Virus record (IMG/VR): IMGVR_UViG_3300025840_000324 | Span: 1 to 20,987 of that record | DNA: 20,987 bases | Reading direction: 5' to 3' (one strand) | DNA from: a virus | In this document: positions 15,258 to 20,160 of the stretch, one piece after another | Position numbering within the stretch: the stretch's first letter is position 1 | How the letters are laid out: each line of letters starts with the position of its first letter | Position numbers and translations under genes: made by a program | The notes under the pieces: model-generated | Databases searched by the model: none | Told to the model about the DNA's origin: nothing | Seen by the model: the letters and a program-made list of their open reading frames with translations, nothing else

Positions 15258-15962
15258 ATGAGTTTACCTATGTTAAATATTCCAACTTATCCGTTGGAGA
15301 TACCTTCTACAAAGGAGATGATTTCATTTAGACCATTTCTAGTAAAAGAAGAAAAGATACTTCTTTTAGCTTTAGAAGAAAATAATGAGGCAATGATTGC
15401 TCGTGCACTAAAACAAATTGTACACAACTGTACGTTTGAAATTTTAGAAATTGATCGTATGCCTTTATTTGATTTGGAGTATATCTTTTTGAACATTAGA
15501 GCAAAGTCTGTTGGCGAGACAGCTGAGTTAAAACTTCTTTGTCCAGATGACGAAAAAACATATGCAAATGTGAAAATTCCTTTGGATGAAGTTCAAGTAG
15601 AGTTTTCAAAAGACCACAAGAAAGAAATTAAACTAACAGATACGATTACTGTGGTCATGCGTTACCCAACATATGAATTGTTGGGTATGGACGATAGTTC
15701 AATGACGATAGAAAGGACTTTCAAACTTATTGGTGATTGTACTGATAAGATTGTTGACGGTGAAACTGTATACGAACGAGCAGATTTCACAGAAAAAGAA
15801 TTGAATGATTTTTATGATGGCTTAAACTCTCAACAGTTTTTGGAGATTCAAAAGTTTTTTGAGACAATGCCTAAACTAAGATATATTGTCGATGTTGTTA
15901 ATCCAAAGACTAAGAAGAAAAATAAAATTACATTGGAGGGATTGCAAAGTTTTTTCGTATAG
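15258..15962 (+). CDS. 26: Baseplate hub / tail assembly protein gp26-like (zero-frame product)
   Basis: The zero-frame product has 234 residues. The start MSLPMLNIPTYPLEIPSTK and FRPFLVKEEKILLLALEENN are hallmarks of gp26-family proteins of T4-like phages. AGGAG (15244-15248) precedes the ATG by nine bases. The last codons read AGT TTT TTC GTA TAG, in which T-TTT-TTC at 15950-15956 is a perfect slippery heptamer. I infer that a fraction of ribosomes moves into the -1 frame and makes a longer protein (see the 15258-16144 entry). gp26 is listed as a hub protein in T4; a short-and-long product pair would also fit a tail-assembly chaperone like lambda gpG/gpGT, which should be kept in mind. Confidence 0.85.
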   Translation: MSLPMLNIPTYPLEIPSTKEMISFRPFLVKEEKILLLALEENNEAMIARALKQIVHNCTFEILEIDRMPLFDLEYIFLNIRAKSVGETAELKLLCPDDEKTYANVKIPLDEVQVEFSKDHKKEIKLTDTITVVMRYPTYELLGMDDSSMTIERTFKLIGDCTDKIVDGETVYERADFTEKELNDFYDGLNSQQFLEIQKFFETMPKLRYIVDVVNPKTKKKNKITLEGLQSFFV

Positions 15963-16144
15963 CTCTTTCTCATAATAGTCTTGAAAATCATATCAGGACA
16001 AACTTTGCTTTGATGCAACATCACAAGTACAGTTATTCTGATTTAGAAAATATGTTGCCATGGGAAAGAGCGATTTATGTTTCCTTACTCGTCAGCTATA
16101 TAAAGGAAGAAAACGAAAGACGAAAGGCTGAAGCAAGAAAATAA
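15258..16144 (+). CDS. Predicted -1 frameshift product of gp26 with a gp51-like tail
   Basis: If the ribosome slips by -1 on TTTTTTC (15950-15956), translation continues from base 15956 for 62 codons to TAA at 16142-16144, giving a 295-residue protein. The added part starts RIALSHNSLENHIRTNF, then has YSYSDLENMLPWERAIYVSL and a charged helix IKEENERRKAEARK. This region has no good start of its own (the first in-frame ATG, 16013, lacks a ribosome-binding site and would give 43 residues), and it ends one base before the next gene, so it fills the gap exactly. GCTCTTTCTCAT at 15962-15973 pairs with ATGGGAAAGAGC at 16060-16071 (12 pairs, one G-U), five bases after the heptamer. Resemblance to T4 gp51 is a guess. 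Confidence 0.7.
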
Positions 16145-16145
16145 C

Positions 16146-16463
16146 ATGGCAGATGAAAAACAAGTACTTATTAGAGAAAAAACATACGAAGTAGATAAAT
16201 CAGACTTTTTAACAATTCAAGGATTCGATCAGAGTAAGACTTGGTATAATCAAACAGCGGGTTTCATGGATACTCTACGTTTGATTCCAAGACTATTGAT
16301 GGTCGCCTATGGTTATGTGTTCTGGTACTCAACTCAATGGTTTATGAACTTACCTGATCCAACAAATGCACAAGCAGCCTACATTTCTACTATTGTGGGT
16401 GCCGGCGCAGCGTGGTTTGGATTATATGTGGGCAGTGGCCACAAACCAGCAAGTAAAAAATAA
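16146..16463 (+). CDS. Small membrane protein, holin-like candidate
   Basis: The 105-residue protein has a soluble N-terminus (EKTYEVDKSDFLTIQGF), then a hydrophobic helix around 44-68 (LIPRLLMVAYGYVFWYSTQWF), a short loop NLPDPTNAQ, and a second helix around 76-96 (YISTIVGAGAAWFGLYVGSG) before a basic end. Two helices with a polar loop and a basic tail fit small holins, but the region between gp26 and the large tail proteins is structural, so a virion or assembly role is equally possible. The ATG follows the frameshift-product stop by one base. Confidence 0.6.
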   Translation: MADEKQVLIREKTYEVDKSDFLTIQGFDQSKTWYNQTAGFMDTLRLIPRLLMVAYGYVFWYSTQWFMNLPDPTNAQAAYISTIVGAGAAWFGLYVGSGHKPASKK

Positions 16464-16466
16464 TAA

Positions 16467-18410
16467 ATGGCTTATACAGGACTAGGATTAACTCAAAAAC
16501 CTACTTTGGAGGGTATTAAAGAGGCAGGTTTAGCTCTAGCTGGAGGTGTTGGTGCCACCATCACCGGTGTTGGTGGACTTGCTCTTGGTGGAGCAGGACT
16601 AGTTGCAGGATCTTTAGCAAACGCATTTGGTGCAACAGCAACACCATATCTCGTTGGCCTTGGTGCTATGGGAGCAGCAGGTAAGAAAGGATTTAATATG
16701 TTTGATAGATCCTCAGATGACAATACAATAAAAAAAGATACTGCTACTCCAGAACTTCAACAGGAGATGTCCAAACAGACTCAATATGGATTATTAAGTC
16801 TGGATAAGTTAGATGACATTCACAAAGACTTAGCAGAAACAAGATCGATTCTGGTAGTTCAAGATCCGGCTTCTCAGGCAAGAGAAGAAGCATTAGACGA
16901 ACAAACAAAGAACAAAGAACTTGTTTCTACTATTATGGGTATAGGTAAAGGTGTAGATTCAGGTGGTAAAGGAAAAGAAAAAAGTCTTTTAGAGAAATTA
17001 TTGCCCTTAATAGGACTAACTGCGTTGACGGCTGCTTTGCCTAAGTTCTTAGAAGATTTTGATAAATGGTCAAATACAATCTCTGAAGCTGTTGATAATA
17101 TCTCAGAGTTTTTAAATGATTTAGATAACTTCTTTGAGGGTATGGGTATTGAGTTTGGTGGTCCAGCGGCCTTGGGTGCAATACGTGGTGCAAAAACTGC
17201 AACACGAAGAACCCAGAGAAAGTTAAGAACACCTCGTGGCGGTCTTAGTCGAGGTACAGGTACTAGACGAGCAAGACCAACTTCTAAAGAAACACGAAAG
17301 AGATATCAAAGAATATACGGCTCCGATGCAGCTAGAAATAGATTTCAAGGTCAGGTAAGAAACCCTCGAGGCGGCCTTGAACGAGGTACAGGCACTAGAT
17401 CGGCAAGACCAACTTCGACTCCAAAAAGAGGAGGACCAAGAAGATTAGCTCTCAAGTCTTTAGCGTTACCGCCACCAAAACCACCTAAATCTAAAAGACC
17501 ATCTAAAATTAATTCTACACAGTTTTTGTTGGATAGTAAACCACAACCAGTATCACCAGAGATTAAACCAACAACGTCTACACCTAAAAGAGGCGGTAGA
17601 GTAAAACAAGGATTTCAAAAGGCCTTTGATATAGCTCGATTTAAAAATTTACCTAGAAGTGCATCATCAAGTTACATGGCTTCAGTTGATCCTGCACAAA
17701 GAGGAAAAGCATGGAGTAAAATTGCAGCTTTAGATAAATGGTTGGCAACAAATAAAGTTGCTCAAGCAGTTCTCAAGCCATTTGCAAAAGCAGCTTGGTT
17801 TATATCTGCTGCCTTTGCTGCATATGATATTAGTGAATTGATAAGTCAATGGCTGAAAAATAAATCTGAAGGTAATGATTGGCCTTTTGCAGGCGATGAA
17901 CCAGAAGATAAAGTTTTTGTTGATGGATTGAAAAAGATGGCAGGAACTTATGGAGGAGCCTATCTCGGAGCAATTGCTGGAGGTATGATAGGTAGTTTGA
18001 TTCCTGTTCCTTTTGTCGGAACTGTAGCAGGTTCAATTGTAGGAGGACTAGCAGGATCAATGCTAGGTGAAAGTCTTGCAGGGGGTATACAAGGTACAGA
18101 TAGGCTCAACAAGATAAAGGCTGAGAAGAAAGGTATCTTGATGGAGTTAAACTCCGAATTTTCACCCGAAGATTCGATGAATGGAAGAGATGAACAATTA
18201 ATTCAACGACTGGAGGCTATTGACGAAGAAATCAAAGTTTTAGAGTCAGGTCCTACGGATGAAGCATCAACAGTGGTAATAGTGAATAATGTGGATAATA
18301 CACAAAATGTTAATTCTGCAACATCAACAACGACAAATACTACAAACACGGAAAATAAAGCTCCAATGCAAATCTACGGCGAAGAAGATATGTCTTATAT
18401 GTCACCTTAG
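16467..18410 (+). CDS. Large tail protein, paralogue A (tape-measure-like candidate)
   Basis: The 647-residue protein starts with a glycine-rich hydrophobic segment (MAYTGLGLTQKPTL then ALAGG and GLALGGAGLVAGSLANAFGAT) that is nearly identical to the start of the next gene. A helical part with EKLLPLIGLTALTAALPKFL follows, then a very basic Arg/Pro/Lys region (residues about 245-390) holding two copies of PRGGLxRGTGTRxARPTS 44 residues apart. Next come hydrophobic helices and a glycine-zipper-like stretch (GGAYLGAIAGGMIGSL, GSIVGGLAGSMLGESL) and an Asn/Thr-rich tail. Size, low-complexity regions and position after gp26 suggest a gp29-like hub or tape-measure role, but no motif proves this. 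Confidence 0.6.
   Translation: MAYTGLGLTQKPTLEGIKEAGLALAGGVGATITGVGGLALGGAGLVAGSLANAFGATATPYLVGLGAMGAAGKKGFNMFDRSSDDNTIKKDTATPELQQEMSKQTQYGLLSLDKLDDIHKDLAETRSILVVQDPASQAREEALDEQTKNKELVSTIMGIGKGVDSGGKGKEKSLLEKLLPLIGLTALTAALPKFLEDFDKWSNTISEAVDNISEFLNDLDNFFEGMGIEFGGPAALGAIRGAKTATRRTQRKLRTPRGGLSRGTGTRRARPTSKETRKRYQRIYGSDAARNRFQGQVRNPRGGLERGTGTRSARPTSTPKRGGPRRLALKSLALPPPKPPKSKRPSKINSTQFLLDSKPQPVSPEIKPTTSTPKRGGRVKQGFQKAFDIARFKNLPRSASSSYMASVDPAQRGKAWSKIAALDKWLATNKVAQAVLKPFAKAAWFISAAFAAYDISELISQWLKNKSEGNDWPFAGDEPEDKVFVDGLKKMAGTYGGAYLGAIAGGMIGSLIPVPFVGTVAGSIVGGLAGSMLGESLAGGIQGTDRLNKIKAEKKGILMELNSEFSPEDSMNGRDEQLIQRLEAIDEEIKVLESGPTDEASTVVIVNNVDNTQNVNSATSTTTNTTNTENKAPMQIYGEEDMSYMSP
17232..17417 (+). repeat. 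Two 54-base direct repeats in paralogue A
   Basis: Bases 17232-17285 and 17364-17417 encode PRGGLSRGTGTRRARPTS and PRGGLERGTGTRSARPTS. The copies differ mainly at third positions, so the protein repeat has been kept by selection or the duplication is not recent. The offset is 132 bases (44 codons). Confidence 0.8.
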
Positions 18411-18420
18411 GAAAATGTAA

Positions 18421-20160
18421 ATGGCTTATACAGGACTAGGATTAACTCAAAAACCTACTTTGAAGGGTATTGGAGAGGCAAGTTTAGCTCTAGCTGGAGG
18501 TATTGGCGGACTTGCTCTTGGTGGAGCAGGACTAGTTGCAGGATCTTTAGCAAACGCATTTGGTGCAACACCATATATTGCCGGATTAGGTATACTTGGA
18601 GCATCAGCCAAAAAAGGATTTAATTTTTCGTTTGAAAAGGAAGATACTGCGAGATCACTTGGATTGGATGAAAATTCTAGTCCATCTGAGGTTGAAGCCG
18701 GAGAGGTTTCCATCTTAAATAAAATTGCAGCAGAAAGTAGTTCGTTATTAGAAACTGTAAAAGATAATCAAATTTCTCCATCTCAAGAAAGAGAATTTCA
18801 GATGGATAGAGACAAAAATCATCAGGAATTAATCTCGGCTTTTTCTAATATAAGTCTTGTGAGTATTTCTGATGATGAAAACAAAGATCCCTGGTGGAAA
18901 AAAATATTTAATCTCTTATCTGGATGGAAATTACTTGTTGCACCATTTGTAAAGGGAATGGCAACTTTCTTAGCCAGAATGTTACTTGTGTTTACAAGTC
19001 CTGCCTTGTTGGGTATTGCTGGTGCACTTCTGATAATGACAAAATGGAAGACAATCAAGAAAACAATAAAAGGAGCAATTTACAAAATAAAAGTTTGGAC
19101 CAATAAAGTTTTGAGTTTAATTCCTGGAGCTCCTCTATTAGAAATTGGAGAAAATCCTAACGCAACACCTATGGATGCAGGAGAGTTCGTCAATACAACT
19201 ACAGGAGGTGATGAAGGATTTAAAGTTGTAGAAAATCCTAACGCAACACCTATGGATGCAGGAGAGTTTGTCACCACAACAGGCGTCGGAGAATTTAAAG
19301 ACGGTGGATCGTTTATTGTAGATGGTGATGATGGTGGAGTTGATAAGCTTATGGTAGTGTTTAATGCAACCAAAGGAGAAAAGGTTACAGTAGAAACACC
19401 AAAACAACAAAAAGAAAACATGAAGTCTCCCACAATGCTAGGAGATAAGTACGTTGATATGGATACTATCGAAGGCCGTAGAGAATTTTATTTCAATGCT
19501 ACAGAAGAAGAATGGACACAGATGTATGTTAATATGGAAAATCAAGGAATGGGACTTGCATCAAGTGCTGCTCAAATGCAAGATACCTCAAAACTTGAAG
19601 TTTTAGATTATATGTTTGGTATAAGCGTGGAGGGACAACAATCAGTACAAACATCAATGGTAAATGATGACATAAAGGAAAGTTTTGGTGATTGGACAAA
19701 AATTGTAAATTCCATTGGTGATGTTACTCAAATGCAATCAGGTGAACTTATGGATACTAGAACAGGAAGTGAAGAATCTGTTACTGGCGAAAATATGAAA
19801 ACAATTTCCTGGGATGATTGGAAAGGAGATGAAGATAAATTAAGGTCGTTGGGAGTATACAATAACGAGGACATCAATAGATACAAACAGATAACAGGTT
19901 CTAGTTTTATGGATACTAGCGGCGGCCGAGGAAGAATGGTTGAAGGTCGATATGACAGAATTAATCATTTAAAACAAATTCAGAGAACTATTGAAACACC
20001 AAAAGTAGAGTCATTTAAACTAAAACCAAAAGTTGAGGAAATAACAAACTATATTGATAACTCGTCCTCGAAAAACCAGAAGTCAACAAAAACTTATGAG
20101 TTTGGTGGCGGTTTCTCTGTAACAGATGGACACACACTATCACCACTTACAAACAGGTAA
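18421..20160 (+). CDS. Large tail protein, paralogue B
   Basis: The 579-residue protein shares its first 70 or so residues with paralogue A, including a 63-base DNA stretch that is identical in both. After that the sequences diverge. It has a segment with WWKKIFNLLSGWKLL, hydrophobic helices (FVKGMATFLARMLLVFTSPALL, split here) around residues 170-200, a two-copy repeat ENPNATPMDAGEFV, and a long polar C-terminal part with FGGGFSVTDG near the end. The first half fits an inserted or tape-measure-type tail protein and the second half is unassigned. It begins ten bases after the first paralogue ends, with AGGA as a distant ribosome-binding site. Confidence 0.6.
   Translation: MAYTGLGLTQKPTLKGIGEASLALAGGIGGLALGGAGLVAGSLANAFGATPYIAGLGILGASAKKGFNFSFEKEDTARSLGLDENSSPSEVEAGEVSILNKIAAESSSLLETVKDNQISPSQEREFQMDRDKNHQELISAFSNISLVSISDDENKDPWWKKIFNLLSGWKLLVAPFVKGMATFLARMLLVFTSPALLGIAGALLIMTKWKTIKKTIKGAIYKIKVWTNKVLSLIPGAPLLEIGENPNATPMDAGEFVNTTTGGDEGFKVVENPNATPMDAGEFVTTTGVGEFKDGGSFIVDGDDGGVDKLMVVFNATKGEKVTVETPKQQKENMKSPTMLGDKYVDMDTIEGRREFYFNATEEEWTQMYVNMENQGMGLASSAAQMQDTSKLEVLDYMFGISVEGQQSVQTSMVNDDIKESFGDWTKIVNSIGDVTQMQSGELMDTRTGSEESVTGENMKTISWDDWKGDEDKLRSLGVYNNEDINRYKQITGSSFMDTSGGRGRMVEGRYDRINHLKQIQRTIETPKVESFKLKPKVEEITNYIDNSSSKNQKSTKTYEFGGGFSVTDGHTLSPLTNR
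19150..19268 (+). repeat. 81-base offset tandem repeat in paralogue B
   Basis: A 38-base block at 19150-19187 recurs without change at 19231-19268, offset 81 bases (27 codons), and both encode ENPNATPMDAGEF. The near-perfect DNA identity suggests a young duplication or ongoing conversion inside a flexible, Gly/Asp/Thr-rich linker. Confidence 0.85.

Follow-up and report, generated by a model that had tools for sequence, protein, structure and literature searches.

Results

A slippery heptamer would join a gp26-like gene to a second reading frame

The window analysed here, the whole of a 20,987-nt stretch of DNA from a marine T4-like phage (IMG/VR record IMGVR_UViG_3300025840_000324, positions 1 to 20,987), contains a gp26-like gene whose 3' end reads AGT TTT TTC GTA TAG and so holds a slippery heptamer, from which a second frame, displaced by -1, runs on almost to the next gene:

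15258..15962, + strand: zero-frame gene for the gp26-like short form (putative TAC-N), 234 aa, stop TAG at 15960-15962
15950..15956, + strand: slippery heptamer T-TTT-TTC, in X-XXY-YYZ phase
15956..16144, + strand: -1 frame extension, the C-terminal part of the predicted long form (TAC-NC), 62 aa and a stop TAA at 16142-16144

The coding residues of the extension occupy 15956-16141, the ATG of the next gene (16146) lies one base beyond the extension stop, and a shift at the heptamer would give a long form of 295 aa (233 + 62). The initial annotation had reported the TTTTTTC heptamer in this phase ahead of GTA TAG, together with a 62-codon -1 frame ending one base short of the next gene; these and all its other sequence details proved correct.

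Frame and heptamer are conserved among relatives

Five viral-contig scans, together with annotated phages, yielded 418 related sequences. Every locus having both parts (404 of 404) consists of a short open reading frame, a TTTTTTN in the correct phase and then the extension, read in the -1 frame. Fusion in frame, which the initial annotation had named as counting against it, was found at none of the 404, nor was fusion in the +1 frame. Reduced to non-redundant loci (<90% identical), the collection comprises 186 sequences, all of which carry TTTTTTN in the X-XXY-YYZ phase of a -1 programmed ribosomal frameshift site: TTTTTTC in 141, TTTTTTT in 31, TTTTTTA in 11 and TTTTTTG in 3. The codon 5' of the heptamer is AGT, GAT, TCT, AAT or GCT (S/D/N/A) and ends in T in each of the 186. 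Under a codon-usage null that ignores shared ancestry, log10P is about -36 for the third-base T of this preceding codon and about -23 for TTT as the first Phe codon, and because the relatives counted do share ancestry, these probabilities are indicative only. We conclude that the heptamer does not owe its presence to chance.

The arrangement also occurs in phages of Stenotrophomonas, Caulobacter, Xanthomonas, Rhizobium, Sinorhizobium, Aeromonas and Vibrio, and in Pelagibacter phage Mosig the zero-frame stop comes 31 bases on instead of 10, with the position of the heptamer unchanged. The protein sequence of the extension remains conserved at tree distances from the window of as much as 3 substitutions per site. 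This conservation bears on the proposal that a formerly fused gene suffered a frameshift mutation, since when the extension has been decaying and no long form is made. T4 gp51 proves that a one-frame fusion exists, but a -1 frame that stays open and conserved at the protein level over 404 loci and such distances led us to reject decay, which we hold to be the least probable of the explanations considered, with next to no chance of being right. As a separate observation, an Ackermannviridae phage (L096 2600-2820) and Vibrio phage K393 (L095 2540-2760) have an extension with an MPWH motif that is open in the -1 frame without a T6N heptamer.

The extension has no start of its own

In the window the -1 frame opens at 15926 and its first ATG, GTG or TTG is codon 19 of the extension, which leaves no start codon able to yield the complete extension. 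No such codon occurs between the upstream -1 stop and extension codon 15 in 99 of the 186 relatives, and in 22 of the 186 a -1-frame stop stands directly 5' of the heptamer, leaving the heptamer itself as the only entry into the extension from upstream. In many records, among them those of Cr30, RHph_I46 and S-PM2, the annotated gp51 begins at the gp26 stop or just beyond it, as would be appropriate if the -1 frame were a small gene in its own right (gp51), whose translation is initiated by coupling at that stop or close to it. The published start, however, is placed variably among phages, or the gene is omitted altogether, whereas conservation of the protein begins right at the heptamer, for whose retention a separate gene gives no reason. 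We rejected a separately started gene on these grounds and consider it very improbable. The extension is unannotated in Synechococcus phage S-MbCM7 (L099 2007-2183) and Aeromonas phage AS-zj (L089 2007-2180), both of which have the heptamer.

The two frames correspond to T4 gp26 and gp51

The zero-frame product falls in the gp26 family, matching PF12322 T4_baseplate with E 2.4e-63 (214 bits, cut-off 24.5) and PHROG 150 with E 5.8e-68. The extension matches PHROG 634, which takes its name from gp51, with E 5.1e-26; it also aligns to positions 236-277 of PHROG 150, beyond the end of the short gp26 proteins; matches to it were found in 596 phage records. Its structure model is helical, and comparison of that model with the PDB gave no meaningful match.

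In T4, gp26 and gp51 are separate genes on opposite strands. T4 gp51 (249 aa) consists of the T4_baseplate domain and then the extension in a single frame, with profile matches to PHROG 150 up to position 280 and to PHROG 634 (E 1.2e-23), while T4 gp26 (208 aa) ends before the extension and lacks it; the product of fusing the two frames is thus known from nature. The initial annotation had proposed aligning the 62-residue extension with T4 gp51, and profile-profile alignment places it at gp51 residues 207-243 with E 2.4e-4, compared with E 0.87 against T4 gp26. Since the extension aligns with gp51 and not with gp26, the frameshift product would correspond to T4 gp51, and the product of the zero frame to T4 gp26. 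Cyanophage and marine vibriophage gp51 has been noted to be without its first ~200 residues, a frameshift explanation not being offered (PMC3037559); we suggest that these residues appear to be missing from the cyanophage protein because it is produced by frameshifting. Vibrio phage TDDLMA was considered as a possible in-frame fusion of the frameshift locus and set aside, its 229-aa one-frame protein (L094 1404-2093) being of T4 gp51 type, without a T6N site.

A covarying long-range stem follows the heptamer

The RNA elements around the heptamer are as follows:

15935..15940, + strand: Shine-Dalgarno-like GGAGGG, 9 nt 5' of the heptamer, candidate dnaX-type stimulator
15962..15973, + strand: 5' arm of the long-range stem, GCTCTTTCTCAT, pairing over 12 pairs with 16060-16071 and covarying in relatives
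15978..15999, + strand: small predicted hairpin within the 86-nt loop (15978-15984 with 15993-15999), in the minimum-energy and centroid folds
16060..16071, + strand: 3' arm of the long-range stem, ATGGGAAAGAGC, covarying at column pair 18-117 of alignment A1

The pairing of GCTCTTTCTCAT with ATGGGAAAGAGC begins 5 nt after the heptamer, within the spacing of 5-9 nt looked for in a downstream structure. As originally described, it comprises 12 pairs with one G-U and closes an 86-nt loop, and folding of the region (-37.1 kcal/mol, z -3.0 against dinucleotide shuffles) retains it in both the minimum-energy and the centroid structures. The RNA of the extension folds more stably than its synonymous-codon shuffles: over 90 sequences the mean z was -2.28 and 70% reached p<=0.05, whereas a control stretch of gp26 gave a mean z of -0.81 and 24%.

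Because an earlier covariation test of 63 sequences had used a subset selected by pairing, and was therefore partly circular, we redid it with a clade defined by the protein tree, namely the 112 sequences on the window's side, in a gap-free alignment. In these 112 sequences, stem cells changed on both sides numbered 83, against 30.7 in shuffles (0 of 500 reaching 83) and no more than 26 in slid controls. The strongest covarying pair (A1 columns 18-117) is UA in 47 sequences, CG in 46, UG in 3 and another combination in 16; it links the third position of a Leu codon to that of a Glu codon, each of them a synonymous site, and has switched at least 8 times on the tree. RNAalifold returned this same stem as the consensus of each of four sub-clades run separately, and predicted no pairs when given all 112 sequences together. 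In a fifth sub-clade (L352-L283), a proximal hairpin, GCCTC...GAGGC, lies soon after the heptamer in place of the long-range stem; the members of this sub-clade are L352, L350, L348, L349, L356, L278, L283 and neighbours. Cyanophages keep the heptamer, but the long-range stem is absent from them, and RNAalifold found no shared structure with compensatory pairs in their sub-clades. A search of Rfam returned nothing relevant, with chance snoRNA-like matches only.

The heptamer is accordingly present at all 404 loci, while the stem covaries within the window's lineage and is absent from the cyanophages, from which we take the stem to be a lineage-specific stimulator. Within that lineage, the pattern of substitutions argues that the 12-bp stem is real.

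These data also bear on the possibility that RNA polymerase slips on the T run, generating mRNAs of mixed length and hence both proteins. Every site does contain a homopolymer of at least 6 T, and 31 of 186 have 7 or more. Efficient bacterial transcript slippage, however, is known from runs of about nine or more, which six T do not reach, the T run is broken by C, A or G in 155 of 186 loci, and polymerase slippage needs neither a strict ribosomal phase nor a covarying downstream stem. Given the T runs, the phase and the stem together, we rejected transcript slippage, to which we would assign a very slight chance.

Upstream of the heptamer, the anti-SD duplex at GGAGGG in the window is calculated at -10.8 kcal/mol, against -5.5 kcal/mol under a codon null, and across the family Glu at this site is encoded by GAG in 77 of 119 cases, compared with 27% elsewhere. 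The signal is strong in the window and modest across the family, reaching p<=0.05 at 24% of loci; GGAGGG may pair with 16S rRNA as a candidate frameshift stimulator.

Fold and gene order suggest a probable tail assembly chaperone

In the structure model of gp26 (pLDDT 90), the N-terminal ~85 residues match the HK97 tail assembly chaperone 2ob9 with Z 7.9; the three best structural matches are 2ob9, 3fgx (7.5) and YqbN 3klu (7.2), with the next at 4.7. As the tail assembly chaperone (TAC)-fold matches all have Z under 8 and Foldseek ranks 2ob9 at E 3.4, the fold is supportive, not decisive. A gp26 profile search of solved-structure sequences found no relative. Two downstream genes give the context:

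16146..16463, + strand: next gene, a 105-aa membrane-like protein (PHROG 10198, E 2e-21)
16467..18410, + strand: tape-measure-like protein, 647 aa, the presumed chaperone client, assigned from PHROG 167 tail length tape measure (E 8.7e-07), related matches and position

The putative chaperone gene is thus followed by one 105-aa gene and then by the tape-measure-like protein, and Cr30 has an annotated tail tape measure protein at the same place. Short genes likewise occupy the interval held here by the PHROG 10198 protein, between the chaperone and tape measure genes, in several relatives. The tape-measure-like proteins at 16467-18410 and 18421-20160 stand in tandem and have nearly identical N-termini (MAYTGLGLTQKPTL.GI.EA.LALAGG), as if duplicated.

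Discussion

Our comparative analysis indicates that one gene very probably makes two tail assembly chaperones via a -1 frameshift. That such a shift joins a gp26-like protein to a gp51-like tail, as the initial annotation had proposed, is supported by the 404 of 404 loci, by the fused T4 gp51 and by the absence of a usable separate start. On this reading, most ribosomes would terminate at 15962 and yield the short, gp26-like form (TAC-N, 234 aa), while a fraction would pause at U-UUU-UUC, held there by the downstream stem and possibly by pairing of GGAGGG with 16S rRNA. Both tRNA-Phe would then slip back by one base, and translation in the -1 frame would produce the 295-aa TAC-NC with its gp51-like tail. 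If they act as lambda gpG/gpGT do, the short and long forms, present in a fixed ratio, may coat the product of the tape measure gene just downstream and bring tail tube subunits to it.

A broader reading, to which we give an even chance, concerns the origin of this arrangement. Phages on the non-cyanophage side, including Pelagibacter phage Mosig and Methylophilales phage Melnitz, would have a TAC gene with a three-part signal (SD-like site, T6N heptamer and covarying stem with an 86-nt loop), of which their relatives retain the heptamer but have lost the stem or, in one clade, exchanged it for the proximal hairpin; a frameshifted gene would then be the ancestral condition, and T4 gp26 and gp51 would have split from it by duplication. 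Relatives that frameshift within one gene or divide the two forms between two genes offer a series for studying change between frameshifting and gene duplication. Recognition of the mechanism would also correct several hundred genomes of cyanophages and marine phages, whose annotation lists gp51 as a separate small gene or misses it.

Frameshifted tail assembly chaperones of the lambda gpG/gpGT type, to which HK97 gp13 belongs, were reportedly described by Xu, Hendrix and Duda in 2004. The analogy with lambda drawn in the initial annotation holds, by way of the HK97 match and the position just upstream of tape-measure-like genes, and the locus is most likely a frameshifted TAC-N/TAC-NC pair of this type. 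In lambda, too, a single gene next to the tape measure gene, on its upstream side, gives a short form and a -1 extended one, and HK97 gp13 is the best structural match of the gp26 N-terminal fold. In contrast to lambda, gp26 of the window is larger (234 aa) and has a second domain, slippage would occur at T6N in place of GGGAAAG, and in the window's lineage this site lies between an SD-like element and a covarying long-range stem. The -1 signal of E. coli dnaX consists of an internal SD about 10 nt upstream, a heptamer and a downstream stem. The window shows a matching succession of three parts, in which the SD-like one has a putative role, although the genes are unrelated and dnaX has a compact hairpin where the window has a stem with an 86-nt loop.

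Closer parallels come from T4-like and other phages. Our literature searches joining gp26, gp51 and frameshifting returned unrelated phages only, and we found no description of a covarying long-range stem and SD-like element at a T4-like TAC frameshift site. As cited in PMC10885494 and PMC12846349, Vladimirov, Gautam and Davidson (2022, Virology 566:9-15) name the T4-like TACs gp26 and gp51, the same protein family as the window gene. Some T4-like phages are described, with reference to that work, as having a short TAC gene and a separate fused long gene instead of frameshifting (PMC10885494), and poly-T slippery sequences as known in the TAC-N genes of T4-like phages (PMC12846349). The Vandenendeviridae/Andersonviridae (phage Adele) have a conserved -1 TAC shift where TAC-N ends, at the poly-T motif GTTTTT, and resemble the window in this respect, but they belong to another phage lineage, and the passages of PMC12846349 consulted do not mention a covarying stem. 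Whereas T4 itself uses two separate, divergent genes without a frameshift, the window would obtain both forms from one gene; and since T4-like TACs and poly-T slip sites have already been reported, according to the papers citing Vladimirov et al. (2022), we regard this locus as a well-supported case of a known mechanism.
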